Source: a virus
Direction: 5' to 3' (one strand)
IMG/VR virus record: IMGVR_UViG_3300021425_004041
Span: 22,116 to 86,115 of that record
Length of the DNA: 64,000 bases
A model generated the notes under the pieces. The model was not told the origin of the DNA, searched no databases, and saw nothing but the letters and a program-made list of their open reading frames with translations. This document shows positions 13,464-56,140 of this stretch, piece by piece (the first letter of the stretch is position 1; the number at the start of each line of letters is the position of its first letter). The position numbers and the translations under genes were made by a program.

Positions 13464-13466
13464 TAA

Positions 13467-17597: not shown

Positions 17598-17633
17598 AAT
17601 ACGGTAAATACAACTAACAGATAGGGGAAATTA

Positions 17634-19208: not shown

Positions 19209-19211
19209 ATA
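19204..19211 (+). promoter_or_regulatory. T4-type late promoter box TATAAATA
   Basis: An exact TATAAATA, the T4 late -10 consensus, overlaps the stop codon of the third fibre gene and lies 27 bases before the next start codon at 19239. No -35 element is expected for this promoter class. Its placement between two structural genes supports it, although AT-rich DNA produces chance matches. Confidence 0.5.
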
Positions 19212-19238
19212 AAACTAGTAGTTTACACGGAGTTAAGT

Positions 19239-27227: not shown

Positions 27228-27242
27228 TATGGGAAAAAATAA

Positions 27243-33867: not shown

Positions 33868-33868
33868 A

Positions 33869-36509: not shown

Positions 36510-36518
36510 ATAAAATAT

Positions 36519-39869: not shown

Positions 39870-41076
39870 TAAAAAAACATATTGTCCTATGCCTTTTGTG
39901 ACAATGACTGTGAATCCAGGAAATTACATTTCACGATGTATGATGAGTGTAAAATCAATGGGAGAAATACAATCAAAAACTTTGCAAAATTTAGCGTTTG
40001 AAACGCTTAGATCTAATATGCTAAATGGAGTTTGGGATAAAGAAGGTTGTAAAGTTTGTTATAGTAGAGAAAATGCAAATTTAGATAGTCAAAGGTTAAA
40101 ATGGTTAAAAAATGAAAAAATATATTTAGATGAAGAAGGTATATATGAAAAAAATATTAATTTAAGCAGAAATAAAATTTATCATTTATATTTAAATTTT
40201 AGTAATATTTGTAATTTTAAATGTAGAATGTGCGGACCGCATTTTAGTAATGCATGGTTAAGTGACCATAGGAAATTGTTAGAGAAAGGAATATATAAAG
40301 AAATTTATATTCCACCTAAAAGTCAAGTAGATATAGATAAATTTTTATTAGAATTTGGTAATGATTTACAAAATTTACGGCAAATTTGGATCACAGGAGG
40401 AGAACCGTTTATTGATAATAAATTATTTGATTTCTTTGAAAAGCTAGAAAGTTATGCAGATTTAAAAAATATAAAGGTAAGTGTAAACACAAATGGTAGC
40501 AAGTTAGATGTTAATAAATTGAAAATTTTAAGGAATTTAAAACAAATTGTAATTAATTTTAGTGTAGACGCTGTAGGTGATTTGTATAAGTACATGCGTG
40601 GTTATAATTATGATTTTAAAGAAATTGATAAAAAGATAAACAATTGTTTAAAATTACAGAATGAGCAAAATAATTTAAATATTGCTGTAAATGGAACTTA
40701 TCAATTATATAATATTTTGAATGTAGAAGATTTTTGGCTATGGGGTAAAAAAGTTGCTAATTCTAAAAAAGGAAATTGGATAGAATATAGAACACTTTCT
40801 GGTCCAAATTTTCTTGCTGCTCGTCATGCACCTTTAACAGTAAAAAATAAAGCAGTAAAAATTTTGCAAAAACTAATAGATGACGATAAAGATTTTATTC
40901 ATAATCATTATTTGCAACAGGCTATTTGTGAATGTAAATTAAATGCTGTACCAGAGTATATAAAAAAATTTGTTAATTTTAATAACGAACTTGATAATAT
41001 AAGGAATGAAAAGTTAAATGATTATTGCGAGTTTTTATTAAAAGGCTGGCGTGAAGAAGGTAATTTAGATGAATAG
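39862..41076 (+). CDS. Radical SAM protein with N-terminal twitch-like Cys domain (copy 7 of 8, altered CC pair)
   Basis: A 404-residue paralogue. N-terminal Cys8 (YCPMPFVTM) and CKVC at 63/66 are present, but the usual CC pair is reduced to RCMM, leaving one Cys at 26. The radical SAM motif CNFKCRMC is intact at 117, 121 and 124; TGGEPFIDN and NTNGSKL follow. If the CC pair helps to hold an auxiliary cluster, this copy may bind it differently or not at all. It overlaps the next gene by 8 bases. Confidence 0.82.
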   Translation: MYNKKTYCPMPFVTMTVNPGNYISRCMMSVKSMGEIQSKTLQNLAFETLRSNMLNGVWDKEGCKVCYSRENANLDSQRLKWLKNEKIYLDEEGIYEKNINLSRNKIYHLYLNFSNICNFKCRMCGPHFSNAWLSDHRKLLEKGIYKEIYIPPKSQVDIDKFLLEFGNDLQNLRQIWITGGEPFIDNKLFDFFEKLESYADLKNIKVSVNTNGSKLDVNKLKILRNLKQIVINFSVDAVGDLYKYMRGYNYDFKEIDKKINNCLKLQNEQNNLNIAVNGTYQLYNILNVEDFWLWGKKVANSKKGNWIEYRTLSGPNFLAARHAPLTVKNKAVKILQKLIDDDKDFIHNHYLQQAICECKLNAVPEYIKKFVNFNNELDNIRNEKLNDYCEFLLKGWREEGNLDE

Positions 41077-42124
41077 GTATTGCGAAGCAGGCAAAAATCA
41101 TGTATGGATACGGTCTATGGGTGTAGGACCAATGGCTCAATTGTGTTGTAGTTTAGACAGGAGTGATATACATAGATATCCATTAGATAAGGTATCTGAT
41201 TTTTTAACATTGTTAGATTCTGCAGAATGGAAAAAAAAGTATGATGTGCTTGAAAAAGAAAGATTAGACGAATGTAGTAATTGCTATAAAGCTGATCAAC
41301 AAAAAAAAGATAGTCAAAGAAGAAAAATAAATAGTTTTTGTAAAAATGGCAAGTTTTTTTTAAAAATTGATTTTAGTAATAAATGTAATTTAAAATGTTT
41401 AATGTGTAGCAGTGCTAGAAGCACATCTTGGATTAAAGATGAATACCAATTAAAAAAAGATTTAGATTGGTGGGATTGGGTGCCTATAAAGTATTCTACA
41501 TTAGGAGACGATTGGTGGCATAATTTACCAAACTTGTTTTGGAATAGTGTAAGCACAGTTGAAATTTCAGGAGGCGAACCATTATATCAAGAAGATGCAA
41601 TTGCTTTTTTAGAGTTTTTTGCTCATTCTTATCCAAATATCACAATAAGAATAATAACAAATGCAACTTTGTTAAATGACAATGTTAAAAAAATTTTTAC
41701 AAAAATAAAAACATTAGATGTTTTAACAAGTATAGATGCATGGGAAGATGAAATTTATAGATATAGTAGAGGCGGAGTACATTCGTTAGATAAAATAAAA
41801 GAAAATCTTAAAATAATTAATTCTATTGTTACAAGGCATGCTGTTGTAGATACCTTACATCCAGTAAACTACGATCAATCTCTTATTGGAAAGCAATGGC
41901 TTAGGCAAAATGGTTTAAAAGTTGATTATCATGCCTCGTATGTGTTTTCGCCAGATTTTTTAGATCCAAGAAAAGTATTACCTGCTAATTTATTGCCCGG
42001 AAAAAAAGATTATAAATTAATGAAAAGATTTAAAGAATTTATTTTAGCATTAGATAAAATACGAAATACAAATATTTTTGATATAAGACCAGAATTTGAA
42101 AAATGGTTTCTGGAGATAGGATGA
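41069..42124 (+). CDS. Radical SAM protein with N-terminal twitch-like Cys domain (copy 8 of 8)
   Basis: The shortest of the eight at 351 residues: Cys5, a CC pair at 26-27 (AQLCCSLD), CSNC at 69/72, and CNLKCLMC at 106, 110 and 113 with SSARSTSW. SGGEPLYQE and TNATLLN follow. The opening lacks the FC-x-LPW-x-H motif seen in copies 1, 5 and 6. Its last 4 bases overlap the SGNH-like gene (ATGA), so translation is probably coupled. Confidence 0.82.
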   Translation: MNRYCEAGKNHVWIRSMGVGPMAQLCCSLDRSDIHRYPLDKVSDFLTLLDSAEWKKKYDVLEKERLDECSNCYKADQQKKDSQRRKINSFCKNGKFFLKIDFSNKCNLKCLMCSSARSTSWIKDEYQLKKDLDWWDWVPIKYSTLGDDWWHNLPNLFWNSVSTVEISGGEPLYQEDAIAFLEFFAHSYPNITIRIITNATLLNDNVKKIFTKIKTLDVLTSIDAWEDEIYRYSRGGVHSLDKIKENLKIINSIVTRHAVVDTLHPVNYDQSLIGKQWLRQNGLKVDYHASYVFSPDFLDPRKVLPANLLPGKKDYKLMKRFKEFILALDKIRNTNIFDIRPEFEKWFLEIG

Positions 42125-43005
42125 AAATAGGAATTTTTGGAGATAGTTTTGCAGAAAAAGTTAATCCTGCATTGTGGATTTGTTCAACCTTACAGGAAAA
42201 CAAGTATACAAATTACTTAAGAGAAAAAATAAGGGAGGATACTTATATTTGGCATGATTATTTTGCTGAACAGGGGCATACAGTGCATGATTATGGTAGG
42301 GGTGGTACCGATATCTATTATTCCTATTATCAGTGGCTGCATAATCATGAAAAATATGATTGTTGTATATTTCTTGAAACAGGTTTTCGTAGGCTCTCGG
42401 TAAGGCACAAGAACTTTAATGCAAAACATGAAAAAGATCTTTGGTATTCTGTTGTAAATGTGCAAGATGCGTTACGCAAATCAAATCCAAATAAAAGTCT
42501 ATTTAAAGGAAGCAAGAATAAAAAAAATGTCTATTATAATAACTTTGCAAAAGCTGCAATATATTATTATAAAATTATTGATAGCTACGATCCTTTTAGG
42601 CATATACATTTTTGTGAGTTAATGTTGAAAGAAGTACAACAAAAGAGGCCTGATACGTTATTTGTACCAGCAGTATATAATGATCCTTTAAACAATTCAC
42701 CTACTTTGACAGACATTTATCTTATGGAAACAGCGGCAATGGGAGAAGTATATCAGAAAGAGTTAGAAAACAATACATGTTTTATTGGTGAAGGTAAAGG
42801 ATTCGCTGATATAAGAGTTGCTCATTTAAGTAAGAAAAATCATGAAATACTAGGAAAAAAGATATATGATAGTATTATGAATAAGGTAACAAATTTTAAA
42901 ATAATTATTGAAGATTATATAATGGAATTTTCTCAAGACGAAATAGACAAATGTTGGATTTCGAAACAAGAATGGAAGAATATAATTGAAAAAAGATATG
43001 CATAA
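42121..43005 (+). CDS. SGNH/GDSL-like hydrolase
   Basis: I start this gene at ATG 42121, in an ATGA overlap with the preceding gene and after GGAGATAGG, rather than at an in-frame ATG 18 bases further upstream; this puts the nucleophile strand MKIGIFGDSFAE at the very N-terminus, as usual in the family. GDS gives the Ser, GRGGTDIYYSYYQW the block II Gly, and FADIRVAHLSKKNHEILGKKI the terminal Asp/His pair. It is 294 residues long. Likely an esterase or O-acyl-handling enzyme; the substrate is unknown. It is embedded between radical SAM genes. Confidence 0.62.
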   Translation: MKIGIFGDSFAEKVNPALWICSTLQENKYTNYLREKIREDTYIWHDYFAEQGHTVHDYGRGGTDIYYSYYQWLHNHEKYDCCIFLETGFRRLSVRHKNFNAKHEKDLWYSVVNVQDALRKSNPNKSLFKGSKNKKNVYYNNFAKAAIYYYKIIDSYDPFRHIHFCELMLKEVQQKRPDTLFVPAVYNDPLNNSPTLTDIYLMETAAMGEVYQKELENNTCFIGEGKGFADIRVAHLSKKNHEILGKKIYDSIMNKVTNFKIIIEDYIMEFSQDEIDKCWISKQEWKNIIEKRYA

Positions 43006-44120
43006 TGAATACAGATTTAAAATATAGTAATTATGATTTTACAAAAATACCTTTTAAAGATTTAGTACAAGTTGGTCAACGAACTTTATTATATAGAGAT
43101 ATTTTTACAGTATCTTGGTTACTAGGTAGATATTGTAATTATCGTTGCTCATACTGTTGGCCGTATGCTAGATCTAATTCAAAAGATCATCGACCTACAA
43201 AATTATGTCTATTGACCATAGATGAAATAAAGAGGCAAGCAAGGACTAACGGATTTAATAGTTTCCATTTTAGCTTGTCAGGAGGTGAGCCGACATTTCA
43301 TCCTGGATACTTAGATATCTTAAAATATCTGGCAGATGATGTTCCTAACACGAATTATACAAGCATACACATGACTAGTAATTGTTCTAGACCATTAGAA
43401 TGGTTTAAACAATATGTTGAATATGCAAAACCATTTCATAGGGCAAGTATTACAGCGAGTTTACATACAGAACATGTATGCACAAAAGATCAGATGCAAG
43501 ATTTCGCGGATAAATTAATCCTATGTCAAGAAAACGATGTTCAAATTACAATAAATCAAGTTATGGTACCTGAATGGTTTGACAGAGATTGGGAGAATGC
43601 TTTATTTTTCCATGAACAAGGAATAAATGTAACACTAAAACCGCAAAGTGATCCTACTGCTAGTCGTGTTGTTGATGGGTATACAGATGAACAATTAAAA
43701 AAATTATGGAATGGAATGCCACAGCGTGCCTATACAGAATCTAAACGTAAATGGGATGATAGACCAAAGCCGTCTTATGATATCAATCCAGGAATAATGG
43801 GTAAAAATGATGCGAGTGTGCCTTGGCATATGCAAGTAGAGTTTACTGATAAAGATGGAAAAAAATGGTATATAGATCAGGCGGAAAGATTTAATGCTTT
43901 TAATTTTAATAAATTTAAAGGATGGAGCTGTAATGCAGGATTTCAGGGTATAATTATTAGAGAACCAGATGGAAGTGTAAAAAGAAGTTATAGCTGTCAT
44001 GATGTGCCTTTAGGAAATATTGAAACAGGTTTTAATTTGTTTAAAAAACCGGAATTTTGTATAACTGATAGTTGTGTGTCAAGTGCTGACAGCAAAATTC
44101 CAAAAAGGAAAGTTTTATGA
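43005..44120 (+). CDS. Radical SAM protein with C-terminal auxiliary Cys domain
   Basis: A 371-residue protein with CNYRCSYC at 44, 48 and 51, HFSLSGGEPTFHPG near residue 88, and MTSNCSRPLEW. The C-terminus carries KGWSCNAG, YSCHDVPLGN and CITDSC, a likely auxiliary Fe-S region. It is the single-chain counterpart of the split gene at 32162-33290. It starts on the last base of the SGNH stop codon (TAATG) and overlaps the SDR gene by 4 bases. Confidence 0.8.
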   Translation: MNTDLKYSNYDFTKIPFKDLVQVGQRTLLYRDIFTVSWLLGRYCNYRCSYCWPYARSNSKDHRPTKLCLLTIDEIKRQARTNGFNSFHFSLSGGEPTFHPGYLDILKYLADDVPNTNYTSIHMTSNCSRPLEWFKQYVEYAKPFHRASITASLHTEHVCTKDQMQDFADKLILCQENDVQITINQVMVPEWFDRDWENALFFHEQGINVTLKPQSDPTASRVVDGYTDEQLKKLWNGMPQRAYTESKRKWDDRPKPSYDINPGIMGKNDASVPWHMQVEFTDKDGKKWYIDQAERFNAFNFNKFKGWSCNAGFQGIIIREPDGSVKRSYSCHDVPLGNIETGFNLFKKPEFCITDSCVSSADSKIPKRKVL

Positions 44121-44569: not shown

Positions 44570-46396
44570 ATGAAAAAAAATGTTTTATTATGTACTTTTA
44601 GTATTCAATTTCAAGATTGGTTGCCTTATGCTGTAGGGTGCCTTATATCTTACTGCAAAAGAAATGCTAAAATAAATGAACAATTTAATTTTTTAGAACC
44701 AGAATTTTTACAGAGATCTGTTTTTGATACACAAATGACCAAAAAGTTACAAAAAACAAATATTTTAGGACTTACTTGTTATATATGGAATCAAGAAATA
44801 AATGATAGGTTAGCAAAAAGATTTAAAAAAATTAATCCAAATGGTTTAGTAGTGTATGGAGGACCACAAATACCAGAAGATAAAGAAGAGGCACAAGAAT
44901 ATTGTAAAGAAAGACAATATGTTGATATATGTTTTGTTGGACCAGCTGAAGAAAATTTCAAACAATTTTTACTTAAACTAGATGATCCTATAGATAGTCA
45001 TGAAGGCACTGTTGGTATAGGATGGAATAATGTAAATGTTGACAGAAAATTGTATAAAGTAAATTATACTCCTACACCTTATACTGATGGAACGTTAACT
45101 AAAATGTTTTTCCTTACAGGAGATAATTATGTTATACCTATGGAAACAAACAGGGGGTGTCCGTATGCTTGTGCATTTTGTGATTGGGGAAGTGTAATAA
45201 AAAGTAAAATAACAAGATTTGATACAGATGTTATTATGAAAGTTTTTGAACTAGCATTTAAGGGTAACATTAATAGAATCGAATTTATAGATGCAAATTA
45301 TGGGGTTTTCCCTGTAGATTTGGATTATGTAAATGAAATGATACGATTGAAATACGAGTATAAAAGAAACGATATGAAAGTAACGTTTTGTGGACTTGCT
45401 AAAAACGGAAGTAAATACCTTGCTGAAATAATGACAAAAGTACAAAAAGAGTTTGAAGAGAATAATAATACTATGAAATTAAGTATACAAACTCATACAA
45501 AAGAAGCTTTAGAAGTTGCAAGTAGGCAAAACATCAGTAATGAAAAAATGTTAGAAATTTATAACAATGTAAAAAAACAAGGTTATGAAATTAATAGTGA
45601 ATTAATTATAGGTATGCCAGGCGAAACAGATGAAACGTGGTTAGATGTTTTACAAAAAGATATCGATAATGGTTGTAAATTTAACAGATGCTATCCGTTA
45701 AGTGTAATGCCTAATACTACATATTATTCAAAAGAATTTAGAAAAAAATATAATGCAAATTTAATAAAAATTTTTGCACCAAAAGACCTTTTGAATATGA
45801 AATTAACCGATTATCATAAAAATCGACAAAATGCTCGATTTATTAAAACTAATGTTAGCATGACAGATACATTACAATGGCGCAGTATGACTATGTTTAA
45901 TTCGTGTTACAGTTATACGAATGAACAATTAGAAAAAATGTACATGTATTGGTGGTGGTTCAGTACTTTGTTTAATACAGGATTTGCTAGAAAGTTTATG
46001 TTAATTTCTAAAAAATCGATTCGTTATCAAGCTTATGATTTTTTTGATAAAATTGATAAAATGCCGTTATTTAAATCATTTTTTGATGATCAGCAGTATG
46101 CCTTTAAACAAAATTTAAGCACTAAGGAGGAAATTGTATATTTGACTGATCTATTGAGTGTCCAGTATATTATTAAAAATCATATGCGGCTTAGAGAAGT
46201 AGTTGATATTTATGATAATTTAGATATAGCAGCAAATGAAATTCGTTTAGTTTATAAAGATTTTACGTTAGATCATATTGATAATTTTTTAACAAAAAAA
46301 CATTATTATAAATTATATTCTGCAGACGGAAATATGGAAAAAAAATATGCCAACAGTTTTGTATCAGACACCACCGTTGATTTACTTGCGAACTAA
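44570..46396 (+). CDS. B12-binding-type radical SAM protein (copy 2 of 3)
   Basis: The 608-residue protein has an N-terminal B12-binding-like region (NVLLCTFSIQFQDWLPYAVG, NILGLTCYIWNQEI, GLVVYGGPQIP, CFVGPAEENFKQFL) and the radical SAM motif CPYACAFC at 197, 201 and 204 in NRGCPYACAFCDWGS. No DxHxxG was found. KLSIQTHTKEALEVA and ELIIGMPGETDETWLDVL are typical later strands. The C-terminal ~200 residues are of unknown fold. It is preceded by a 27-base gap, one of the few in the island, and its end overlaps the next gene by 50 bases. Confidence 0.78.
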   Translation: MKKNVLLCTFSIQFQDWLPYAVGCLISYCKRNAKINEQFNFLEPEFLQRSVFDTQMTKKLQKTNILGLTCYIWNQEINDRLAKRFKKINPNGLVVYGGPQIPEDKEEAQEYCKERQYVDICFVGPAEENFKQFLLKLDDPIDSHEGTVGIGWNNVNVDRKLYKVNYTPTPYTDGTLTKMFFLTGDNYVIPMETNRGCPYACAFCDWGSVIKSKITRFDTDVIMKVFELAFKGNINRIEFIDANYGVFPVDLDYVNEMIRLKYEYKRNDMKVTFCGLAKNGSKYLAEIMTKVQKEFEENNNTMKLSIQTHTKEALEVASRQNISNEKMLEIYNNVKKQGYEINSELIIGMPGETDETWLDVLQKDIDNGCKFNRCYPLSVMPNTTYYSKEFRKKYNANLIKIFAPKDLLNMKLTDYHKNRQNARFIKTNVSMTDTLQWRSMTMFNSCYSYTNEQLEKMYMYWWWFSTLFNTGFARKFMLISKKSIRYQAYDFFDKIDKMPLFKSFFDDQQYAFKQNLSTKEEIVYLTDLLSVQYIIKNHMRLREVVDIYDNLDIAANEIRLVYKDFTLDHIDNFLTKKHYYKLYSADGNMEKKYANSFVSDTTVDLLAN

Positions 46397-46967
46397 AAAA
46401 ACAGGAAGTTTTTCTTTAAAATTTTGTATGAGAGAATATGCATATAATAATCAAATTACTATTTTAGATGTTAAAAGTAAATATACTGATACGCTAGACA
46501 CGCATAAGTTTATAAGTCATATGCCAGCTAAAGATTTAAGTAAAAGACTTGATGTATGGAATAGTGCTTACAAATTTACGTTTGTTCGTAATCCATGGAA
46601 AGTAATATACAGTTATTATATTTATATAAAATACACATTACCAATGTATAATTATCAAGTAAAAGAATCTTATTGTGTTAATAATTTAAATGACTTTGTG
46701 CTAAGTTTGCAAGACGTACACGGAACAATAAATTTTAATAGAGAAATTTATACAATTGATAATCAAGTTTGTGCAAATGTTTTTGATATATCAAGTATTC
46801 CTATAGTTATGAAAAAACTATTTATGATAGACAATGTTCCGTGTAAAAATACACAAAAATATAATTTTAATATAAATGAGTTTACATCAAGATTAGATAA
46901 CTATGTTTATAATGATTATGAATGGGAAATAAATGAGTTTGATTACACAAAACCTACCTTGGATTGA
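46347..46967 (+). CDS. Sulfotransferase-like protein (copy 1 of 2)
   Basis: A 206-residue protein with LIYLRTKKTGSFSLKFCM at residues ~11-28, in the place of the 5'-phosphosulfate-binding loop, and FTFVRNPWKVIYSYYIY (about 72-88), matching the 3'-phosphate-binding VRNPxxxxxSxY signature of PAPS-dependent sulfotransferases. HGTINFNREIYTID later is shared in order with the second copy at 53096-53722 (RGTLNPGKDYYTLD). It would move sulfate from PAPS to a hydroxyl or amine acceptor. The start overlaps the preceding gene by 50 bases. Confidence 0.66.
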   Translation: MPTVLYQTPPLIYLRTKKTGSFSLKFCMREYAYNNQITILDVKSKYTDTLDTHKFISHMPAKDLSKRLDVWNSAYKFTFVRNPWKVIYSYYIYIKYTLPMYNYQVKESYCVNNLNDFVLSLQDVHGTINFNREIYTIDNQVCANVFDISSIPIVMKKLFMIDNVPCKNTQKYNFNINEFTSRLDNYVYNDYEWEINEFDYTKPTLD

Positions 46968-47535
46968 TGTTGACTATGACATTCCTAATAAAAAAGAATT
47001 ATTAAGGTTAATCAAAACAGTTGAGTTTGTATTAGCTGACAACAAAGTTGACGAATCGTACGACGGCATTTATCGCCGAGCTCATAATCTTACTATTGGT
47101 AAACTATGGGATCAGCAAAATATTAATGCTGAAGGCTATGACATGAAGCCATTACCTGATCAAAAACCTTATAAAGAACTGCTAGAACTTACTTACGAAA
47201 CTTCAGTTAGGGTCAAAAAAGATTTAGACTTACCAGAAAAATTACTTTACCATTGTGGGCTATTTATATTTGTTCCTAAGCAGACTAGAATAGCTTATCA
47301 TGTTGATAGTTTTAGAAACTGCAATGTAAGTATGCCATTAGCAAATGAAGGTTCTTATACTCGTTGGAAATTGCCAAATGGTGAAATAGTAGAAACTTTA
47401 TATGCCCGAACAGCAGTACTAGACACACATACACCGCATTGTGTTGATAATAAATCAGATAACGATCGTTATAACTATCAGTTGACATTTCACGCAGATG
47501 TATATATTGATGATATAAGGAGTCTATTTGAATGA
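46933..47535 (+). CDS. 2OG-Fe(II) oxygenase, Asp/Asn beta-hydroxylase-like
   Basis: A 200-residue protein with RIAYHVDSFRN (His123, Asp125), a NVSMPLANEG strand, and LDTHTPHCVDNKSDNDRYN with the distal His at about 169 and a downstream Arg that fits 2-oxoglutarate binding. It is the first of six consecutive members of this family (46933-51552). GGGAAATAA precedes the ATG. Family chemistry is side-chain or small-molecule hydroxylation; the substrate is not known. Confidence 0.68.
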   Translation: MSLITQNLPWIDVDYDIPNKKELLRLIKTVEFVLADNKVDESYDGIYRRAHNLTIGKLWDQQNINAEGYDMKPLPDQKPYKELLELTYETSVRVKKDLDLPEKLLYHCGLFIFVPKQTRIAYHVDSFRNCNVSMPLANEGSYTRWKLPNGEIVETLYARTAVLDTHTPHCVDNKSDNDRYNYQLTFHADVYIDDIRSLFE

Positions 47536-47582
47536 ATCCTTGGAATCAAATAACAGATTTACCAAATTATGAGTATGCTTGA
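47532..47582 (+). other. Short 16-codon reading frame, possible broken N-terminus of the next oxygenase
   Basis: From an ATGA overlap with the previous stop, a frame reads MNPWNQITDLPNYEYA and ends at TGA (47580-47582). The wording resembles N-termini of sister proteins in the cluster (LPKFDYEQAW at 48913-49806, where Trp follows Ala). The main oxygenase frame (47569-48228) is +1 relative to it. It may be a leader for translational coupling, a +1 frameshift site at GCTTGA, or damage by indel. Confidence 0.35.
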
Positions 47583-48228
47583 AAGACAGTTGAATTATAC
47601 TGCTATAGTTAGCTGTGGAGATTTTCTCGAAACATTGTATCCTAAATTTGATTACGAAACTGTTGCATGTATTGTTTTTGAATATGGAGATAAACACGGT
47701 TGGTATGAGCGTGGAAATCACGGAGTTAGTGGATTGTCTATTATTAATAAAGACGGCCGCACAATTAGTCCAGCAGTTGATAGTATACGTAGTTACAATA
47801 AGGAAAACAACACAAACTGGATCGAAACAGACTTTAGACAAAAAACAGAGTTATATAATGATGTTATAGATCATATACCGTTGTTAAAAGATGCAGAGCC
47901 TTTTTTGTGTCGTAGTCACTTTATTAAAATGTCTCAAGGTGGAATATTTCCGCCACATCATGATGGCTTAGATGCTATTAGAATTGCAATTCCTATTTGG
48001 AATTGCGGAACAAATGACTTTAAATGGGGATACGAAGACAAAGTCCTTCAGATGAAAGAAGGTCATTGTTATTATATGAACACATTAAAAAAACATTGGG
48101 TTGTGAGTTTTACTGACGATTGTTTGTTTTTACTTTTAAATATAGAACCTACACCAGAAGCATGTTACTGGTTATGGGATACAGCATTAGGAGGACGTAA
48201 TGCACCGAAGCGAAGAACTAGGCCTTAG
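47569..48228 (+). CDS. 2OG-Fe(II) oxygenase, Asp/Asn beta-hydroxylase-like
   Basis: The 219-residue protein has FIKMSQGGIFPPHHDGLD with H-x-D at His130 and Asp132, IAIPIWNCGTNDFKWGY, and TLKKHWVVSFTDD with the distal His at about 176. The layout matches the family, though the Arg after the distal His is not obvious. The start is uncertain: ATG 47569 and 47575 have no clear ribosome-binding site, and a better-placed start at 47532 is out of frame. It overlaps the next gene by 29 bases. Confidence 0.66.
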   Translation: MSMLERQLNYTAIVSCGDFLETLYPKFDYETVACIVFEYGDKHGWYERGNHGVSGLSIINKDGRTISPAVDSIRSYNKENNTNWIETDFRQKTELYNDVIDHIPLLKDAEPFLCRSHFIKMSQGGIFPPHHDGLDAIRIAIPIWNCGTNDFKWGYEDKVLQMKEGHCYYMNTLKKHWVVSFTDDCLFLLLNIEPTPEACYWLWDTALGGRNAPKRRTRP

Positions 48229-48916
48229 TCGAGTTGTTGACGTTGGAATGACTGAAGAATGGTATAATGATATAGTAAGTGATTTACAACCTGCAATAGA
48301 CTTAATAGAAAAACACCTCAATAGTGGTTACGATAATCCAGGCGGCGAATACTTTAATTTAAGCTGGCCGCTTGGTCATACTCCGTACATGCCTGCAGAA
48401 CAAAAGAAAGAACGCACAGAGCAAGGCTTATACGAAGAAATTGAATTTGATGATTATGTATTAAATTGTAATTACTTTCGAAAAGGTACACCTGAAGAAT
48501 ATATTGTGCATGGTATACGCCCAAAGTATACTAGTGTCGAAGTAGGTGAACATGTAAAAAGATATATCGATACAATTGCAGAAATAGACGGTCATCAAGA
48601 CAAAAATAAAGTTATGTTAGTTATGTACAAAGGCCCAGAATTTAGTATGCAGTGGCACAACGATACTTATACATATAATAGATATCAGTTTCCGATCACT
48701 ACTACACCATTTGGACAGTTCGGTTGGCGATACAAGCATAATGATAAAAATGTTGAAGAAGTTTGGTTAAGCATGGACAAAGGTACAACTTACTGGGTAA
48801 ATACACAAAATATACATATTTTTGATAACAGTCGTCCTGGCTGTACAGGACGTATACACTTTATGATAGATTACTTAGATTGGGAACCTCATTACGAAAA
48901 GGGATTTAAGCCATGA
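48200..48916 (+). CDS. 2OG-Fe(II) oxygenase, Asp/Asn beta-hydroxylase-like
   Basis: A 238-residue protein with EFSMQWHNDTYTYNRYQFPI (His153, Asp155), GQFGWRYKHNDKNVEE, and WVNTQNIHIFDNSRPGCTGRIHFMID, giving the distal His at about 206 and a following Arg-Ile-His strand. The ATG at 48200 follows TTAGGAGGACGTA, a near-perfect ribosome-binding site, which fixes the start despite a 29-base overlap. The 4-base overlap with the next gene indicates coupling. Confidence 0.7.
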   Translation: MHRSEELGLSRVVDVGMTEEWYNDIVSDLQPAIDLIEKHLNSGYDNPGGEYFNLSWPLGHTPYMPAEQKKERTEQGLYEEIEFDDYVLNCNYFRKGTPEEYIVHGIRPKYTSVEVGEHVKRYIDTIAEIDGHQDKNKVMLVMYKGPEFSMQWHNDTYTYNRYQFPITTTPFGQFGWRYKHNDKNVEEVWLSMDKGTTYWVNTQNIHIFDNSRPGCTGRIHFMIDYLDWEPHYEKGFKP

Positions 48917-49806
48917 AGATAATAGATGAAAGTACTATACATCCTAATTTACAGGTTCCTTGGAAAAGTCAAGAAGATGAATTTGTACCTGACTTCGATA
49001 AAAAAGTTGACTTGGAAGAAAAACAAAGATACGAAGCGCAAATTGCAAAGTACGAACAAGAGAATCCAGTTAGTGCTAGAATAAAAGAAATCCCGCATAT
49101 TAAATTAAACTTACCAAAGTTTGATTACGAACAGGCGTGGAACGAAGTTCAGCAACTTGACGAAGATACTTACAGCAGATGCAATTTGCGAAACTACAAA
49201 GAAACACAAGAAAAAGGACCGTTGTTGCATCCTCATTGGTATAGTAAAACAATAGTTAACTACACTCCGCACAGTTGGGTAGGTCAAGGCAAACAAGCAA
49301 AAGAAGAAGCAGCTTGGGCATATCCAGAGTACCAGTCTTATGCAGCAAGTATTGTAGATGATGTTGCCCGACTAAACAGCGAAGATATGGAGTTTTATAA
49401 AACTGAAATATATGATCAATTGCCTACTATAACAAGTTTTATTAATAAACACATTGCAGATACAACTTATCGTATGCATGTATGGAAAATAAAAGATGGC
49501 GGCTATCTAAACTGGCACAATCATGCAAGATTGCCTTGGCATAGTGATGTTATTGTAAACGATAAAGCAATTGTACATTTGCCTCTATACACACACCCCG
49601 ATGTGAACATGCTTGTTCGTAAAGAAGGAAAAATCTACGCAGAGCATTATACTCCCGGCGAAGCGTGGATCTTTAATTACATATACGATCATGCTGTAGA
49701 TAATCCTACAGATGTGTTTAGGTGTCATATTGTTTTTTATGTACCTTTAACGGATAAAAAGTTTGCAAAGCTAGTAGAGGAGTCTTTAAATGTTAACAAA
49801 AATTAA
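48913..49806 (+). CDS. 2OG-Fe(II) oxygenase-like protein with His-rich metal site
   Basis: A 297-residue protein. Residues 1-60 are charged and helical. The core has MHVWKIKDGGYLNWHNHARL, then PWHSDVIVND and AIVHLPLYTHPD, and later GEAWIFNYIYDHAVDNPTDVFRCHIVF. The spacing from HSD to the HLPL strand fits the H-x-D motif of its neighbours, but WHNH lies where others place their H-x-D, so the metal ligands are ambiguous. The distal His is in DHAVDNP. It is the longest single-domain member of the cluster. Confidence 0.62.
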   Translation: MKIIDESTIHPNLQVPWKSQEDEFVPDFDKKVDLEEKQRYEAQIAKYEQENPVSARIKEIPHIKLNLPKFDYEQAWNEVQQLDEDTYSRCNLRNYKETQEKGPLLHPHWYSKTIVNYTPHSWVGQGKQAKEEAAWAYPEYQSYAASIVDDVARLNSEDMEFYKTEIYDQLPTITSFINKHIADTTYRMHVWKIKDGGYLNWHNHARLPWHSDVIVNDKAIVHLPLYTHPDVNMLVRKEGKIYAEHYTPGEAWIFNYIYDHAVDNPTDVFRCHIVFYVPLTDKKFAKLVEESLNVNKN

Positions 49807-50923
49807 AGACGTTGTAGACGATGCTACTTTATTAGAAAGCGAAATTGCAAGTTTAGAAGCAGATTTAGAATTTGCTGCATCTCTCATTAATGAACCAAGT
49901 AGGGTATTTACTAGCTTTCCGAGAGGATCTAAACATAGAAGCCTTACTACACTTGCTCGTTGCAAAGTTTTATATACTGACGAAAGGATGGAAGTTTTTA
50001 AAAGACCTCATGCAAATATTTTGTTTGTTACATTTGTAGAAAAGGAAACATCTAAGTTTAGAGATCAGTTTGAAAAAGAAATAAAAATTAATCAAATAGG
50101 TATTGCACTTTTTACACCAGGATTTAGTTTTAATTGGCACACTGACCATTTTCCAACACTTAGATGGCATATACCTATTAAAACAAATAGAAAATGTTTT
50201 TTAGAATCTAGAGAAGCAAAAGTGCATATGGAAAAATTTTCTTTATGGACACTAGATAGCAGTAAAGACCATCGTGCATATAATAACGGAAAGGATAACA
50301 GATTGCATTTAATTGCGGATTACGCTGAACCGCCGGTGTGTGAAAAATTAGATGTAAGTTTTAATTTTGAAGAAGTATACAAATGTGTTAAACCAGTATG
50401 CGATAAAATTAAAGGATATAGGAAAGAATATCACTCCACGGATATTGTTAGGATAATGAGTGCATATCCTATAGGGTGTCCGCATTATACGAGTCAAAAA
50501 CGTAAAGACGAAACTTGGGAAGTTATCGATAACGATGAAGTTACGACGTATACTCGTTCAACTAAGTTTGGTACAATTATGGTTAGTGCGTACTGGAAAG
50601 GTACAGTTGTATGGGATCAACCAGTATTAGATCTTATAGAAAAGATTCGCACATTGTACAATGAAGAAGGCATAGCACAAGTTGCAGTGATTATGGCAGG
50701 CGAAAATTTTAGATTAGAACGACATGTTGATACTAAAGGATTGACACGATATCACGTTCCGCTAGAAACTAACGAACACAGTTATTTTGTAACTTATGAT
50801 CCTGAAACTAAGTGGTGGCCAAAAGAAGGTGACGTATGGCGTTTAGAGACTGATAAATATCATGCAGCAATGAACGATAGTGAAACAGAAACAAGAATAC
50901 ATATGATAATAGATTTTATCTAA
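49790..50923 (+). CDS. Tandem double-domain Asp/Asn beta-hydroxylase-like protein
   Basis: This 377-residue protein holds two complete-looking oxygenase units. Unit 1: FSFNWHTDHFPTLRWHIPI (His117, Asp119) and SKDHRAYNNGKDNRLHLIADY (distal His about 161). Unit 2: FRLERHVDTKGLTRYHVPLE (His312, Asp314), WWPKEGDVWRLETDKYHAAMN (distal His about 358) and ETETRIHMIIDF. Both keep H-x-D...H and the following Arg. Fusion or duplication within one chain could create a paired active site. It overlaps the previous gene by 17 bases and the next by 1. Confidence 0.7.
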   Translation: MLTKIKDVVDDATLLESEIASLEADLEFAASLINEPSRVFTSFPRGSKHRSLTTLARCKVLYTDERMEVFKRPHANILFVTFVEKETSKFRDQFEKEIKINQIGIALFTPGFSFNWHTDHFPTLRWHIPIKTNRKCFLESREAKVHMEKFSLWTLDSSKDHRAYNNGKDNRLHLIADYAEPPVCEKLDVSFNFEEVYKCVKPVCDKIKGYRKEYHSTDIVRIMSAYPIGCPHYTSQKRKDETWEVIDNDEVTTYTRSTKFGTIMVSAYWKGTVVWDQPVLDLIEKIRTLYNEEGIAQVAVIMAGENFRLERHVDTKGLTRYHVPLETNEHSYFVTYDPETKWWPKEGDVWRLETDKYHAAMNDSETETRIHMIIDFI

Positions 50924-51552
50924 TGACTAATATAACGCTATTAAACACAAATTTTAAAGATATGTTAACTGAGTTAAAAATTGAGCTAGCGCCTTATCTT
51001 GCAGCAATGCAAGATTATGAGCAATATTTAGATTTTAGTAAATACCCAAATAGAGTAGCAATTGTATACCCTGTAGGCAATACACAAAAAAGTTTATATG
51101 CAAGCAGAAATCTTGATGAAAAGAAACCAGTACACAGAGATTTTGAAACATACAAAAGTTTTCAATTATTTTTCCCCCAACATCAAACTTTAAACCATAC
51201 ACTCCAACTTAAAGGAGGAAAATATCCTGTTGATATAATTAATAAAATAAAGTTTATTATTTTTAAAGAAACTGGATATGATGTATTAGAGTGCGAAGCA
51301 GCAATTGCAACAAAGTATAAAAACTACACATTGCAGCCGCACATTGACGGTGATAAGGAAGAAAGTGGAGTAACGAACAGAATTCATTTGGTATTAGAGT
51401 CTAATGAAACAAATTACTTTGAAGATGAAAATAAAATGAAATACAATCTTAAAGAAGGAGAAGTTTGGGATATAGATGTTACACGTACACATGGTGCTGG
51501 AAACTTTTCAGATGCTAGAGCTACTCATCTAGTTCTCGATTACAAAGGATGA
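50923..51552 (+). CDS. 2OG-Fe(II) oxygenase, Asp/Asn beta-hydroxylase-like
   Basis: A 209-residue protein with YTLQPHIDGDKEE (His140, Asp142), TNRIHLVLESNETNYFEDE, LKEGEVWDIDVTRTHGAGN with the distal His at about 190, and ATHLVLDY at the end. The LESNETNYF segment resembles LETNEHSYF in unit 2 of the preceding protein, so the two are probably closest relatives. It is the last oxygenase of the plus-strand run and overlaps the B12-type radical SAM gene by 4 bases. Confidence 0.7.
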   Translation: MTNITLLNTNFKDMLTELKIELAPYLAAMQDYEQYLDFSKYPNRVAIVYPVGNTQKSLYASRNLDEKKPVHRDFETYKSFQLFFPQHQTLNHTLQLKGGKYPVDIINKIKFIIFKETGYDVLECEAAIATKYKNYTLQPHIDGDKEESGVTNRIHLVLESNETNYFEDENKMKYNLKEGEVWDIDVTRTHGAGNFSDARATHLVLDYKG

Positions 51553-53108
51553 AACTTTTACTATGTACTATACCTAAAAATGGAGTCAATACTCCTAGTC
51601 TAGCAATCGGATACCTCCAAGCGGCTTGTAAGCAGCAAGGTATAGCCGTAGAAGTAAGAGATTTTAACTGGGACCTCTGGAATGCTACTATACATACGGA
51701 CTGGTGGGAAATATGGAAAGAGTCTAACACAGATTTATACAAAGGTAATCGATTTAATCAGTTTGTTAATGAAGTATACGACAACTTTCTTGATAAGTGG
51801 GCAGAAGAAATAGCAAACAACAATGCTGAATGGATCGGCATCAGTTGTTTTAGCTATCGTAGCTTGCCTAGTTTGAAACTTCTGTCTCCTAAAATCCGCA
51901 AACTTGCTCCTACTAAAAAGATAATTGTGGGCGGCGCTCCTATAGCAACATATGCAAATTGGATTATAGCAAATAATATAGCAGATTATGCAGTTGAAAG
52001 CGAAGGCGATGTTGTGCTTCCTAAAATACTTAAAGGAGAAATACAGCCCGGAATTGTTAAATCTATACAAATTGATGACCTTAACTCCTTACCGCCAGCA
52101 GATTATACAGGACTAGATTTTTCTAAATATATCCCAGGAGATCCAGGCGGACTACGAGTACATCATAATTCAGCCTGGACTAGTGATAGAGTTGAAGCAG
52201 GAATAATGGGTAGTAGAGGATGCGTTCGTAAATGTACATTCTGTGATGTAGAACAGTATTGGCCTAAATTTAGATGGCGCAGTGCCGAAAGCATTTATGA
52301 CGAAATGCTAATGCTATACAACAAAGGCATAAACGAAATATATTTTTACGATAGTTTAATAAATGGTAATCAAGGCGAGTTTGAAAAGTTGCTAGATTTA
52401 ATTATCTCAGATGGTTCTAAGTTTAGAAGTATCAAAGGTTTAGCAATTTTTAAATTTCAGCCTGAAAGGTTGTATGAAAAAATGTCTAAAGCAAATGTGA
52501 AACAACTAAGTATCGGGGTAGAAAGTTTCTCAGAAGAAATTCGTACACAGATGCGTAAAAAGTTTAGCAATGCTACTATGGAAGAAAATCTTGAAATGTA
52601 CAAAAAGTACAAAATAAGAGTAGTACTGCTAATGTTAATAGGGTATCCTAGTGAACGAGAAAAACATCATAAAGAAAATCTTAAATGGATAAGAGAACAT
52701 GCCAGCATGGCACAAGGAAAACCAATTAGTAGAATTGAAATAGGCGGAACAATGATTATACTACCTGGAGCTCCTGTGTTCAAAGATCATATGTTTGATT
52801 ATTATATTGACAAAAAAAATGAATGGATTTCACTAAATGGTAGAGAATCTAATACGATGGATGTTAGAGTGAGACGTAGAAAAGAAACTGAAGACTATTG
52901 TACTCGTTATGGATTTGCTACTGGAAGTGTATATGGAGAAGGAGGAATTGTTTTAGGTGATCATGAAAAAAATAATGCTGCTGACTATAAACGCCCGCAA
53001 GATAGTTTGACACCATTAACAAATATTAATAAGTTAAATTTTGAAGAAGACGGCATTGTATTAGGATGGGAAAGTGATCCAACTCGACCATTACATCAAA
53101 ATTCGTAG
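51549..53108 (+). CDS. B12-binding-type radical SAM protein (copy 3 of 3)
   Basis: The 519-residue protein begins LLLCTIPKNGVNTPSLAIGYL, a B12-binding-domain opening, with EWIGISCFSYRSL and KIIVGGAPIATYANW further on. The radical SAM motif is CVRKCTFC at 225, 229 and 232; the surrounding GSRGCVRKC and KFRWRSAESI nearly repeat those of copy 1 (37222-38709). QLSIGVESFSEEIRTQMRKKF and LLMLIGYPSEREKHHKE follow. The C-terminus overlaps the convergent minus-strand sulfotransferase gene by 13 bases, and no terminator hairpin was seen there. Confidence 0.8.
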   Translation: MKLLLCTIPKNGVNTPSLAIGYLQAACKQQGIAVEVRDFNWDLWNATIHTDWWEIWKESNTDLYKGNRFNQFVNEVYDNFLDKWAEEIANNNAEWIGISCFSYRSLPSLKLLSPKIRKLAPTKKIIVGGAPIATYANWIIANNIADYAVESEGDVVLPKILKGEIQPGIVKSIQIDDLNSLPPADYTGLDFSKYIPGDPGGLRVHHNSAWTSDRVEAGIMGSRGCVRKCTFCDVEQYWPKFRWRSAESIYDEMLMLYNKGINEIYFYDSLINGNQGEFEKLLDLIISDGSKFRSIKGLAIFKFQPERLYEKMSKANVKQLSIGVESFSEEIRTQMRKKFSNATMEENLEMYKKYKIRVVLLMLIGYPSEREKHHKENLKWIREHASMAQGKPISRIEIGGTMIILPGAPVFKDHMFDYYIDKKNEWISLNGRESNTMDVRVRRRKETEDYCTRYGFATGSVYGEGGIVLGDHEKNNAADYKRPQDSLTPLTNINKLNFEEDGIVLGWESDPTRPLHQNS

Positions 53109-53722
53109 TCAAATAGTTTTATTTCGTATGCAAAATCTTTTAAGATTTGGTCGTGCATCCAATCTTTGTACAACGTTTTATATGTAGCCTTGCTGTGTGT
53201 ACCTGTGTTTAAAACTGGTAAATCTGGTAATATATATCCGCTAAAGATACTATTTAAATAATTACGTAGATGTTCTATAGGAAGGATGTGTTTGGCTACT
53301 ATAGTTCCGTCTAATGTGTAGTAATCTTTACCTGGATTCAATGTGCCACGTAGTTCTAAAAGTCCTTGACAGAAGCGGTTAAATGTGTCTGTAGGTACTT
53401 GTGTAACTCCTAGCTTTTTCATATGATAAAATTTACTTGCTAATAAATTCCATGGGTTGCGGACAGTAACTATTATTTCCATTTTATTCCACCACTGTGG
53501 AAATGTTTCTTTGGCTCTCGCCGCAGTCATGTGATGCGTAATTATAGTGTCTTGTTCGATGTCAACATTAAAGTTGCTTTGTTTATAATTTAAACTTGTT
53601 AAATAGGGACGATGATTAATTTTAGCAAACTCTACAAGCCAGTGTGTCATGCTAAGACTTGCACTTTTTGGCTGGCGTAAGTAACAAATAAATTTTCCAG
53701 GCGGAAAGATTATACTAGTCAC
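53096..53722 (-). CDS. Sulfotransferase-like protein (copy 2 of 2)
   Basis: A 208-residue protein with FICYLRQPKSASLSMTHWLV at residues ~11-30 (5'-phosphosulfate loop position), TIITHHMTA, and IIVTVRNPWNLLASKFYHM (3'-phosphate VRNP signature, about 83-101). LRGTLNPGKDYYTLDG and a following LPIEHL segment parallel the copy at 46347-46967. It is the last gene of the minus-strand operon that starts with a fibre gene. A PAPS-dependent sulfate transfer is expected; the acceptor is unknown. Confidence 0.68.
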   Translation of the reverse strand: MTSIIFPPGKFICYLRQPKSASLSMTHWLVEFAKINHRPYLTSLNYKQSNFNVDIEQDTIITHHMTAARAKETFPQWWNKMEIIVTVRNPWNLLASKFYHMKKLGVTQVPTDTFNRFCQGLLELRGTLNPGKDYYTLDGTIVAKHILPIEHLRNYLNSIFSGYILPDLPVLNTGTHSKATYKTLYKDWMHDQILKDFAYEIKLFDYEF

Positions 53723-54183
53723 ATTATTCTCATAATAAATTGATGTCCGCCATAGTGCAATTGTTCATGTGAAATATTCCAAAGGTATTTTGAGAATTTA
53801 GCAAAATATTCAAATAGTTTAGGACTTTCCTCTCTACTTAGCCAGATACTGGTATAGCCTAAGGCTAATGCATACTCTGTACTAAGATCCAAAGTTTCTA
53901 ATCCTCTTGCTAAATCATTAGACTTAGTGCCAAAATTGTAAGTTCTTTCTCGAGTATGTCGGCTCATAATTCTTATTGATTTATTATATTCTGGTCTTTC
54001 TATTCCAGCACTATAATAAATTAGTTCTCCATTATAGTATGCCATTCTAGCAAATTTAGTGTATTCAAATAAAGGCCATTTTAAGTAATTATCTGCGTGT
54101 CTGTGAGTAGAATTTTTTTCAAATAGAGCTTTTATTGCATTTAAATGGTTGTCTATAGGCTCTAAATACCATTTTAGGGGCAT
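53719..54183 (-). CDS. GNAT-like acetyltransferase candidate
   Basis: A 154-residue protein. FARMAYYNGELIYYSAGIERPE and SIRIMSRHTRERTYNFG resemble the strands of a GNAT fold before the acyl-CoA site, and STEYALALGYTSIWLSREES resembles the later helix-strand unit (ALxxGYxxI). The Q/RxxGxG/A loop of typical GNAT proteins is not clear, so this is tentative. It overlaps flanking genes by 4 and 10 bases and is read with the hydroxylase and sulfotransferase genes. Confidence 0.45.
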   Translation of the reverse strand: MPLKWYLEPIDNHLNAIKALFEKNSTHRHADNYLKWPLFEYTKFARMAYYNGELIYYSAGIERPEYNKSIRIMSRHTRERTYNFGTKSNDLARGLETLDLSTEYALALGYTSIWLSREESPKLFEYFAKFSKYLWNISHEQLHYGGHQFIMRIM

Positions 54184-54806
54184 AAATTATTTTGCAAGAA
54201 ATTTAAATCTTCAGTGCCTTTTAATGAAAACATCAAAGCAGTCCTATCATTTAGACTATCATTTACAACAGAATGCGGAAAACCTACATTTAAAAAATAA
54301 ATTTTTCCAGCTTTTAAATTGTATTCTTCAATCTTGTTTTTTCTTTTAAAAAGATTTTTTACATTTTTATCTGTTTCAATGGGATAGATACATCTTACAG
54401 CATAATCTACGTTATAATCTACATGGAAAGGAATAGTTTTTCCTGCTGACAATTTTGTTATACGTATGCGACTTACAGGAGCTTTAAAAAGTTTTTTTAA
54501 ATTATTTTCTAGCCAAGTATCTTTGAAAAAAGGTGTAGCTACATTGTACAAATGTTCTTCTTGTCTTTTCAATCTTTCTTTAATATTTTCTGTGTAAGGC
54601 AAAATTTTTGAAGGGTTAGTTAAATTTATTTGTTCAAAATTATCATAAACATCTTTAACTAATTCTTCGTGATTCATACAAAGCATAGGATTAGCAGACT
54701 TAACATCTATAAATTTGTCTTTTATGGTTAAAAAATATTCATTGACTTTATTAAAATCAATAGTAAATGGAAATTCTGCAACGTTAGGTAATACATGTTT
54801 ATTCAT
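54174..54806 (-). CDS. 2OG-Fe(II) oxygenase, Asp/Asn beta-hydroxylase-like
   Basis: A 210-residue protein with ITKLSAGKTIPFHVDYNVD (His128, Asp130), AVRCIYPIETDKNVKNLF, AGKIYFLNVGFPHSVVNDS (distal His178) and NDRTALMFSLKG with the expected Arg. It is a clear member of the family clustered at 46933-51552, but on the opposite strand. It overlaps the aminotransferase-like gene by 8 bases. Confidence 0.72.
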   Translation of the reverse strand: MNKHVLPNVAEFPFTIDFNKVNEYFLTIKDKFIDVKSANPMLCMNHEELVKDVYDNFEQINLTNPSKILPYTENIKERLKRQEEHLYNVATPFFKDTWLENNLKKLFKAPVSRIRITKLSAGKTIPFHVDYNVDYAVRCIYPIETDKNVKNLFKRKNKIEEYNLKAGKIYFLNVGFPHSVVNDSLNDRTALMFSLKGTEDLNFLQNNLCP

Positions 54807-55575
54807 TATATTCTGCCATTAATGGTGATAAGCTAATTCTATTTATGTTGTTTGTACGTTTGAATTTATTGTAAATTGGATTAGTTGATGTTGCAAGCCA
54901 AACTGAATCGCTAGGTGTTAAATCTAATTTATCACAAATTTTGTATTGTAAGTTGTTAAGTCGGTCGTATACATAGTTAATATTAAATGTTTTTATAATT
55001 TCTTCAGCTGCATTATGAGCAATATAATTATAATATTTTGCACTGTTTATTAGGTTTTCTAATTTATTATCTTGTGTCCTAGAAAAAAACCATCCTGTTC
55101 TAATGTTTCTAATGCCAAATGATTTACTTAAACTATAAAATACATATTCGATATTATCACTATTTTTTATTTCAATAATTTTGGTACTACCTATATATGC
55201 TAAGTCTAAAGCAACAGGAACATCATTAGGAATGTTTCTATAATTACCATGTATACTACTAGGACAACTTATATAATGGATATATGCATCATGTATTGTA
55301 GCTGTTTTTGGAACCCATTGATAATCGCCGTCGTCTAAAAAAATTTTTCGTTTTTCATTTGACAACCACCAATCTAAGCCTTGTGTGATACCATTCATTG
55401 GATAAACATAAAAATTAGATAAATCTATTATAGGATGTAACCATTGAACTATATTTGTTTTGTACGGAGTTACGTTGTCCAAATCATAAGGTATACGAGA
55501 TATTGTTTTCCGAACCTCGCTAAGAACGTTTGTTCTTACTGCTGTGCTTTGAGCTAGTAATTTATTTACTTGCAT
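54799..55575 (-). CDS. PLP-dependent aminotransferase-like protein (short, fold type I)
   Basis: A 258-residue protein with YPMNGITQGLDWWL (cofactor phosphate-binding region), VALDLAYIGST with the likely pyridine-N Asp124, and YSLSKSFGIRNIRTGWFF with the Schiff-base Lys151 and phosphate-binding Arg. Class I/II aminotransferases are normally near 380-400 residues, so the N-terminal arm and much of the small domain are missing. It may still bind PLP. It overlaps the desaturase gene by 14 bases. Role in the operon could be amino-sugar or amino-acid modification; this is a guess. Confidence 0.66.
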   Translation of the reverse strand: MQVNKLLAQSTAVRTNVLSEVRKTISRIPYDLDNVTPYKTNIVQWLHPIIDLSNFYVYPMNGITQGLDWWLSNEKRKIFLDDGDYQWVPKTATIHDAYIHYISCPSSIHGNYRNIPNDVPVALDLAYIGSTKIIEIKNSDNIEYVFYSLSKSFGIRNIRTGWFFSRTQDNKLENLINSAKYYNYIAHNAAEEIIKTFNINYVYDRLNNLQYKICDKLDLTPSDSVWLATSTNPIYNKFKRTNNINRISLSPLMAEYNE

Positions 55576-56140
55576 TTATGTGATGAGTATGATGGTCTCC
55601 TTCAAAAGGAGCAATAAAATTTAACCAAAAACAATTCTTTGCAGTGCCAGTGGAGGTATGGCCCCACAAATTTAATGCACCAAAACCTATGTATGATAAT
55701 AGAGAAATTAAAGATAAAATTATTATCGAATCAATTCCAAATAATAAAAATAGAATGAAAGCATTTACAGCATATAATAGATAGATATTTTTGTGAACAA
55801 ATACAATGTATTGATTTTTTATTACATCTTTTATAAATTTTCTAGGAATGTTTTTTACTTTCCAAAGACTGAATAAAATTACATACCATTTTAAATATTT
55901 TCTACTATGAGGATCTTTTGGAGTGTCTGAATAGGTATGATGCATTCTGTGAACACCAACCCAAGTCAAGGGAGATTTACATCCGCAGAGCATGCCACAG
56001 TATAAAATTAAAATTTCGTGGAATACACTAGTTGTAAATGTTTGATGGGCATAAAAGCGATGATAACCAAAGGTAATACCAATTGTAGAAGTAATAAAAT
56101 ATAAAAGATATGACAGTAATGTTAGACTTAATACATCCAT
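55562..56140 (-). CDS. Fatty-acid desaturase-like protein (short)
   Basis: A 192-residue membrane protein with the three His boxes of acyl-CoA/acyl-lipid delta-9-type desaturases: HRFYAH (27-32), HRMHH (64-68) and DHHTHH (182-187). Hydrophobic segments at about 4-25 and 115-150 are consistent with membrane insertion. The chain ends five residues after the last box, so it is much shorter than typical desaturases (over 250 residues). It would introduce a double bond into host membrane lipids, or modify another acyl chain. It follows the fibre gene by 9 bases. Confidence 0.76.
   Translation of the reverse strand: MDVLSLTLLSYLLYFITSTIGITFGYHRFYAHQTFTTSVFHEILILYCGMLCGCKSPLTWVGVHRMHHTYSDTPKDPHSRKYLKWYVILFSLWKVKNIPRKFIKDVIKNQYIVFVHKNIYLLYAVNAFILFLLFGIDSIIILSLISLLSYIGFGALNLWGHTSTGTAKNCFWLNFIAPFEGDHHTHHINASK

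Follow-up and report, generated by a model that had tools for sequence, protein, structure and literature searches.

Why would a virus carry seven hydroxylase domains side by side? The question is posed by a window of 64,000 nucleotides (nt) that comprises bases 22116–86115 of the 86,115-base virus record IMGVR_UViG_3300021425_004041; all coordinates below are positions in this window. Here, six plus-strand open reading frames (ORFs) at 46933–51552, which overlap or lie at most 33 nt apart, encode seven domains of the double-stranded beta-helix (DSBH), Fe(II)/2-oxoglutarate (2OG) type. These genes are designated A to F, with E contributing two domains, E1 and E2; two single members, G and H, bring the total to nine domains within 18 kb. 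Marine phages carry many 2OG oxygenases and genes for radical S-adenosylmethionine (SAM) enzymes; earlier ideas on their role invoked DNA repair or nitrogen signalling, and no function has been agreed upon. The reading favoured here, on a modest balance of probability, is that a lineage of marine jumbo myophages keeps an exchangeable island for oxidative tailoring beside its tail-fibre genes, and that the array is the version of it with the most hydroxylases among those seen. Because the enzymes differ strongly among themselves, the array would constitute a set of tools for distinct oxidation reactions and not multiple copies of a single enzyme.

Nine domains of one enzyme family

All nine domains retain the HxD...H motif, the distal His following the HxD by 44–53 residues, and across the 341 family members that were aligned the metal-ligand His and Asp residues are conserved in 339–341. 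The 2OG-binding Arg that follows the distal His occupies the aligned column in seven of the nine domains, is displaced by one residue in F, and is absent in B. Six domains (D, E1, E2, F, G, and H) pass the gathering cut-off of PF05118 (Asp_Arg_Hydrox), with E-values of 1.1e-5 for D, 3e-22 for E in two stretches, 8e-5 for F, 1.6e-12 for G, and 7e-7 for H, and both E1 and E2 were recovered also in a genome scan. The other three miss it: PF05118 matches B weakly (0.03), and no Pfam match was obtained for A or C. To guard against circularity, a leave-out profile was therefore seeded with the six passing domains only and iterated only on proteins of other viruses; it retrieved B (4e-10), A (2e-5), and C (2e-5), whereas reversed sequences gave no matches. 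As A, B, and C enter the family only through this profile, they are distant relatives of the others. B is also 32–35% identical to the pelagiphage protein Mosig_00081, annotated as Asp_Arg_Hydrox, with H130/D132/H176 conserved, and A has a relative at another viral locus (L113:15210–15752, E=2.5e-8).

In AlphaFold models, the strands of A and C are ordered as in a DSBH barrel, with a mean predicted local distance difference test (pLDDT) score of 66 for A and 62 for C and higher values in the core. In Foldseek searches, the model of A matched prolyl hydroxylases and proline cis-4-hydroxylase with a probability of 1.00, and that of C matched best to Cpz10 (7v4f), also with a probability of 1.00 and with full-model template modelling (TM) scores of 0.3–0.5. 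Alignment profiles compared with the Protein Data Bank (PDB) matched Cpz10 at 1e-20 and 8e-24 and proline cis-4-hydroxylase at 3e-11 and 5e-12; these profiles hold other family members, so that the matches speak for the family more than for A or C individually. Judged by sequence, all nine domains belong with PF05118 and Cpz10 in the DSBH fold, and none of their HxD...H sites is incomplete; the fold itself is predicted by modelling for A and C.

A first-pass annotation, made from the letters and their ORFs, had recognized seven domains in six adjacent genes plus single members at 36519 and 54174, had described the motif as retained in all nine, and had named fold prediction of a cupin-like barrel as a check. 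ORFs, PF05118, the leave-out profile, and the models bear out the count, residue positions bear out the motif, and the predicted barrel was recovered for A and C. Two minor corrections apply: H lies on the opposite strand, and the term 'Asp/Asn hydroxylase' denotes membership of a family and does not imply that such an activity has been demonstrated. AspH proper has a two-His site without a carboxylate ligand (HxG). In all nine viral domains an Asp stands two residues past the first His, and because of this carboxylate the domains are not AspH orthologues.

A fixed island with changing hydroxylase content

The record is most likely an 86 kb fragment of a marine jumbo myophage, a classification based on the 4220-aa protein encoded at 166–12828, which is approximately 24–30% identical to giant structural proteins of the jumbo myophages PA5oct, Atu_ph07, Phosso, SCTP-2, and RaK2-like phages, and on the collar and tail-fibre genes behind it, which follow there in the matched phages too. 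The array sits in a hypervariable island with tail-fibre genes on both sides, the one on the right (56150–57733) carrying an Mtd_N (major tropism determinant) domain. The radical-SAM neighbours that the initial annotation described are real, as is a setting among virion genes; the record holds 14 radical-SAM matches. A nucleotide search of the region against phage records returned no match.

Viral loci were fetched by three routes: 79 through the radical-SAM family with an N-terminal twitch domain, 44 through hydroxylase H, and 42 long loci through hydroxylase G. At least one hydroxylase domain is present in 70 of the 79 radical-SAM loci and at least two in 52, although such loci are best matches chosen by similarity rather than at random, and the frequencies are not population estimates. 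Tandem hydroxylases occur in the same set as a pair in 29 loci and as a run of at least three in seven, the longest run counting four genes, so that the six genes and seven domains of the window exceed any of them. The linkage also holds in reverse, as an N-twitch radical-SAM gene is found in 33 of the 42 long loci picked for G versus one of eight comparison stretches (that of Phosso). Relatives of G appear in 160 viral stretches, and those of H in the 44 loci (48–63% identity) as well as in pelagiphage Mosig (Mosig_00072, 56%). Other searches were emptier: phage records contained no tblastn match to D, E, or G, scanning viral sequences with the single proteins E, G, and C brought up no relatives, a similar scan with the radical-SAM protein 51549 found one distant contig (L012), and a scan of genome contigs with E as the only query gave no cellular relative.

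Comparison with two contigs of the same lineage, G001 and G007, shows what is kept and what changes. The left border is conserved, as are the core radical-SAM genes 26154 (63–68%), 27243 (59–60%), and 43005 (81–83%) and, on the right, the MoxR (76–80%) and DUF2201 (64%) genes; the hydroxylases between these borders differ. The radical-SAM block at 26154–44120 is syntenic in contig L072 and partly so in G001 and G007. The stretch of G001 that corresponds to the array, near the same radical-SAM gene, holds counterparts of A, D, and E1 that are distantly related (E <= 1e-7) and a weaker counterpart of E2/C, in an order that differs from that of the window. The island is a fixed unit whose hydroxylase content changes between related phages. 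In another jumbo-phage contig, L230, a full-length relative of D (10001–10870, 49%) lies directly before a relative of the B12-binding radical-SAM enzyme 51549 (60% over 517 aa), and this pair adjoins a block held in common with pelagiphage Mosig. The block itself (L230:2–6493) is 30–58% identical to Mosig and includes carbamoyltransferase, MoaA-like, and aminotransferase genes; it is evidence of island exchange between phage groups. Taken together, the two-way enzyme linkage, the fixed place beside tail-fibre genes, and the pairing of D with a B12-radical-SAM enzyme point to a shared tailoring pathway in place of the earlier ideas of DNA repair or nitrogen signalling, and they supply defined enzyme pairs to test.

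How the array came about can be read in part from the domains themselves. Their core identities are 13–32%, and in a tree of 341 sequences only E1, E2, and F cluster, F grouping with E2 (support 0.84), while for each of A, B, C, D, G, and H a closer relative is found in some other virus than among the rest of these six; with low support at several branches, the exact sisters are uncertain. By sequence comparison, this divergence argues strongly that domains other than E1, E2, and F are not recent duplicates. The suggestion that the array serves repeated hydroxylation of one polymer thereby finds no support, and of the original alternatives, 'one polymer or several sites', the second is the better half. 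Third-position G+C content is 0.20–0.30 in 46933–53722 versus 0.17–0.19 in the radical-SAM block and H, a difference that weakly suggests that the former stretch may have arrived as a separate cassette.

Cultured rhizobial jumbo phages have a smaller arrangement of similar kind. In Atu_ph07 (L014:34730–41468) and Phosso (L017:33335–41484), a tail-fibre gene is immediately followed by a gene for a cupin/JmjC-like or DSBH protein together with radical-SAM genes, which renders the question testable at the bench.

Neighbouring enzymes and the possible product

The features of the island and its borders are compiled in the table.

Table. Hydroxylase genes, neighbouring enzymes, and borders of the island (window positions)
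Feature	Position	Strand	Properties or basis
Hydroxylase A	46933..47535	+	200 aa, one DSBH domain; H123/D125/H169, R179
Hydroxylase B	47569..48228	+	219 aa; H130/D132/H176; Arg absent from usual place
Hydroxylase C	48200..48916	+	238 aa; H153/D155/H206, R218
Hydroxylase D	48913..49806	+	297 aa; H210/D212/H260, R270
Hydroxylase E, two domains (E1/E2)	49790..50923	+	377 aa; H117/D119/H161 and H312/D314/H358, Arg in both
Hydroxylase F	50923..51552	+	209 aa; H140/D142/H190; Arg one residue off
Hydroxylase G	36519..37238	+	239 aa; H153/D155/H200; adjoins conserved gene 35145-36509
Hydroxylase H	54174..54806	-	210 aa; H128/D130/H178
B12-binding radical-SAM enzyme directly after F	51549..53108	+	Pfam; closest NCBIfam TIGR03975 RiPP C-methyltransferase 8e-29, below cut-off
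B12-type radical-SAM enzyme upstream of array	44570..46396	+	Pfam; KedN5-like 1.4e-49, below cut-off
Sulfotransferase-like gene overlapping A	46347..46967	+	PHROG galactose-3-O-sulfotransferase 1e-4
Sulfotransferase-like gene after array	53096..53722	-	PF00685 3e-4, just below cut-off
Radical-SAM block: N-terminal twitch NF033640 and MoaA-like types, with G, 35145, SGNH-like and nitroreductase-like genes	26154..44120	+	Pfam/NCBIfam; motif reading (SGNH-like)
Cassette: small protein 53719, hydroxylase H, aminotransferase-like 54799, desaturase-like 55562	53719..56140	-	Relatives in Mosig, L097, L113, L230
Left border: 4220-aa VrlC-like baseplate protein and tail-fibre/collar genes	166..20198	+	Protein matches
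Right border: Mtd_N tail-fibre gene, DUF2201 metallopeptidase/VWA, MoxR-type AAA	56150..61657	-	Pfam

The B12-type radical-SAM enzymes are closest to C-methyltransferases or related families, all below the NCBIfam cut-off. Among the radical-SAM genes scanned with NCBIfam, the threshold of NF033640 (>170 bits) is passed by 33869 (330 bits) and 28642 (176 bits), and 26154 and 43005 fall below it. Other genes of the island are glycosyltransferase-like or SGNH-like by motif only. The gene pair formed by G and 35145–36509 is conserved; the latter encodes a 454-aa protein, adjacent also to N-twitch radical-SAM genes, that has relatives in more than 30 viral loci and no Pfam, NCBIfam, or PDB-profile match.

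Several further observations concern single genes. The two sulfotransferase-like genes, one on each side of the array and on opposite strands, share 25% identity and have no relatives in the fetched viral loci. An 827-aa protein (22738–25221) consists of two repeated halves with DGD motifs and is glycosyltransferase-like by eye; its C-terminal part resembles a Mosig methyltransferase, related viruses encode its segments separately, and it gave no PDB-profile match. One radical-SAM protein is split into two overlapping ORFs (32162–32908 and 32901–33290), and its counterpart in L012 is a single protein of 295 aa. A frameshift or sequencing error was considered and dropped, as L072 has the identical split (8915–9616 and 9613–9951), indicative of a conserved gene fission. 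A 72-aa protein (25218–25436), conserved at 56–65% over its whole length in related islands, was considered as the precursor of a ribosomally synthesized and post-translationally modified peptide (RiPP); with conservation throughout and no variable core, this was not borne out.

If the island does act as an exchangeable tailoring unit, each domain would bind Fe(II) and 2OG and use O2 to hydroxylate its own substrate or position, and the hydroxylases would combine with the radical-SAM, B12-radical-SAM, sulfotransferase-, aminotransferase-, and glycosyltransferase-like proteins to build or decorate one multiply modified product. This product may be made late in infection, given that all the main genes from 166 to 53108 run in the same direction as the tail genes. 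Hydroxylation by D and methylation by 51549 probably take place on a shared intermediate. The product would most likely belong to the adsorption apparatus or be linked to it, or else consist of an alteration of the host surface recognized by that apparatus. As the closest characterized relatives act on small molecules and EreI on a peptide, the proposal is one of multi-step tailoring, whatever the class of substrate; among an adhesin side chain, a glycan building block, and a small amino-acid derivative, we lean slightly towards a building-block or glycan type.

Several points weigh against this reading. B lacks the usual 2OG Arg, confidence in the models of A and C is moderate (mean pLDDT 62–66, TM ~0.3–0.5), and the loci that document the linkage were selected by similarity. 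The tie between the hydroxylases and the tail fibres is one of position, and Fe(II)/2OG hydroxylation, distinct substrates, a single product, and late expression are all features that we infer from sequence.

Of the competing explanations, the strongest is that the enzymes directly hydroxylate the phage's own tail-fibre or baseplate proteins after translation, with side chains or repeats divided among the various domains, a possibility that is credible and still decidedly the less likely one. It would account for the tail-fibre genes on both sides of the island and for the DSBH/cupin and radical-SAM genes directly behind tail-fibre genes in Atu_ph07 and Phosso, and it has a precedent in EreI, a PF05118-family enzyme that has a peptide as its substrate and a radical-SAM maturase in its pathway (PMC9259500). 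However, the closest solved relatives act on small molecules, many neighbours resemble sugar- or metabolite-modifying enzymes, and no fibre motif or repeat has been tied to the enzymes. A RiPP-like pathway, with the island encoding both a small ribosomal peptide and, in its hydroxylases and B12-radical-SAM enzymes, the means to mature it, appears improbable. The closeness of 51549 to the RiPP C-methyltransferases of TIGR03975, its pairing with D, and the precedent of a marine proteusin pathway are in its favour, but the RiPP-type family matches are all below cut-off, and no precursor was found when one small ORF family, that of the evenly conserved 72-aa protein, was examined, short of a systematic search. 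Still less probable is metabolic steering, whereby the hydroxylases would mainly drain 2OG or make succinate and so alter host nitrogen signalling or energy, as put forward for cyanophage 2OG oxygenases by Sullivan et al. 2010 (PMC3037559): one active copy would be enough, and nine diverged domains linked to radical-SAM genes at a tail-fibre island would be left unexplained. Recent tandem amplification of one hydroxylase, for dosage or for repeated hydroxylation of one polymer, fits the adjacent same-strand genes and the mutual relatedness of E1, E2, and F but is hardly credible, being already contradicted by sequence for A–D, whose low core identities and nearest relatives in other viruses speak against it, as does the close relative of D in L230, which stands there without E and F.

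Exchangeable tailoring thus remains the preferred reading. A bolder version, which we advance as speculation with the odds well against it, is that jumbo and pelagic myophages share a swappable toolkit of radical-SAM and Fe/2OG enzymes that writes a phage-specific, heavily oxidized and methylated decoration on the adsorption machinery or its target, such that hydroxylase exchange between lineages would change host recognition.

Comparison with known systems

The best structural counterpart is Cpz10 (PDB 7v4f and related entries), the caprazamycin beta-hydroxylase of Streptomyces, in which crystallography identified H115/D117/H160 as ligands and R170 as the 2OG contact (PMC9814697). The DSBH fold is alike, the HxD...H and Arg of the array align to these residues, and the Cpz10-type combination of triad and 2OG Arg on a jelly roll is present in the array domains, the B and F deviations in the Arg aside. 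Cpz10 differs in that it acts on a nucleoside-antibiotic intermediate and lies outside any radical-SAM array. Proline cis-4-hydroxylase (4p7w) and proline 3-hydroxylase (1e5r) have the family and the metal motif in common with the array, but are longer and act on free proline. EreI, a proteusin RiPP hydroxylase from a pathway with a radical-SAM maturase, acts only on the methylated core (PMC9259500); it resembles the viral proteins in the PF05118 family name as well as in the radical-SAM pathway and the multiply modified product, whereas its substrate is a proteusin core, for which the one small ORF family examined in the window offered no equivalent precursor.

Among phages, the nearest parallel is the hypervariable host recognition cluster of pelagimyophages, which contains radical-SAM cassettes, in phages that have an Asp/Asn hydroxylase as a core gene (PMC7029224). 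Like the island of the window, it lies beside the VrlC baseplate gene and tail fibres, and Mosig shares four genes with the window island. The pelagimyophage cluster ends at the neck gene gp14, in contrast to the Mtd-type fibre and MoxR/DUF2201 genes on the right of the window, and because of this border the island is said to resemble such clusters and is not classed as one; its jumbo-phage backbone and much longer hydroxylase run set it apart as well. A T4-like TARA marine virus with 12 radical-SAM genes is also known (PMC5332604). Cyanophages encode up to five 2OG-Fe(II) oxygenases per phage, P-HM1 and P-HM2 having two asparaginyl beta-hydroxylases (PMC3037559), and are comparable in carrying several small 2OG oxygenases, whereas the nine domains of the window span 18 kb, include an uninterrupted run of seven, and are tied to radical-SAM genes. 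The open-access literature that was searched contains no description of an array of this length or of the hydroxylase/radical-SAM linkage. The array is thus real, and islands of this kind are already known; its enzyme family is ordinary, and it is the number and arrangement of its members that are unusual.

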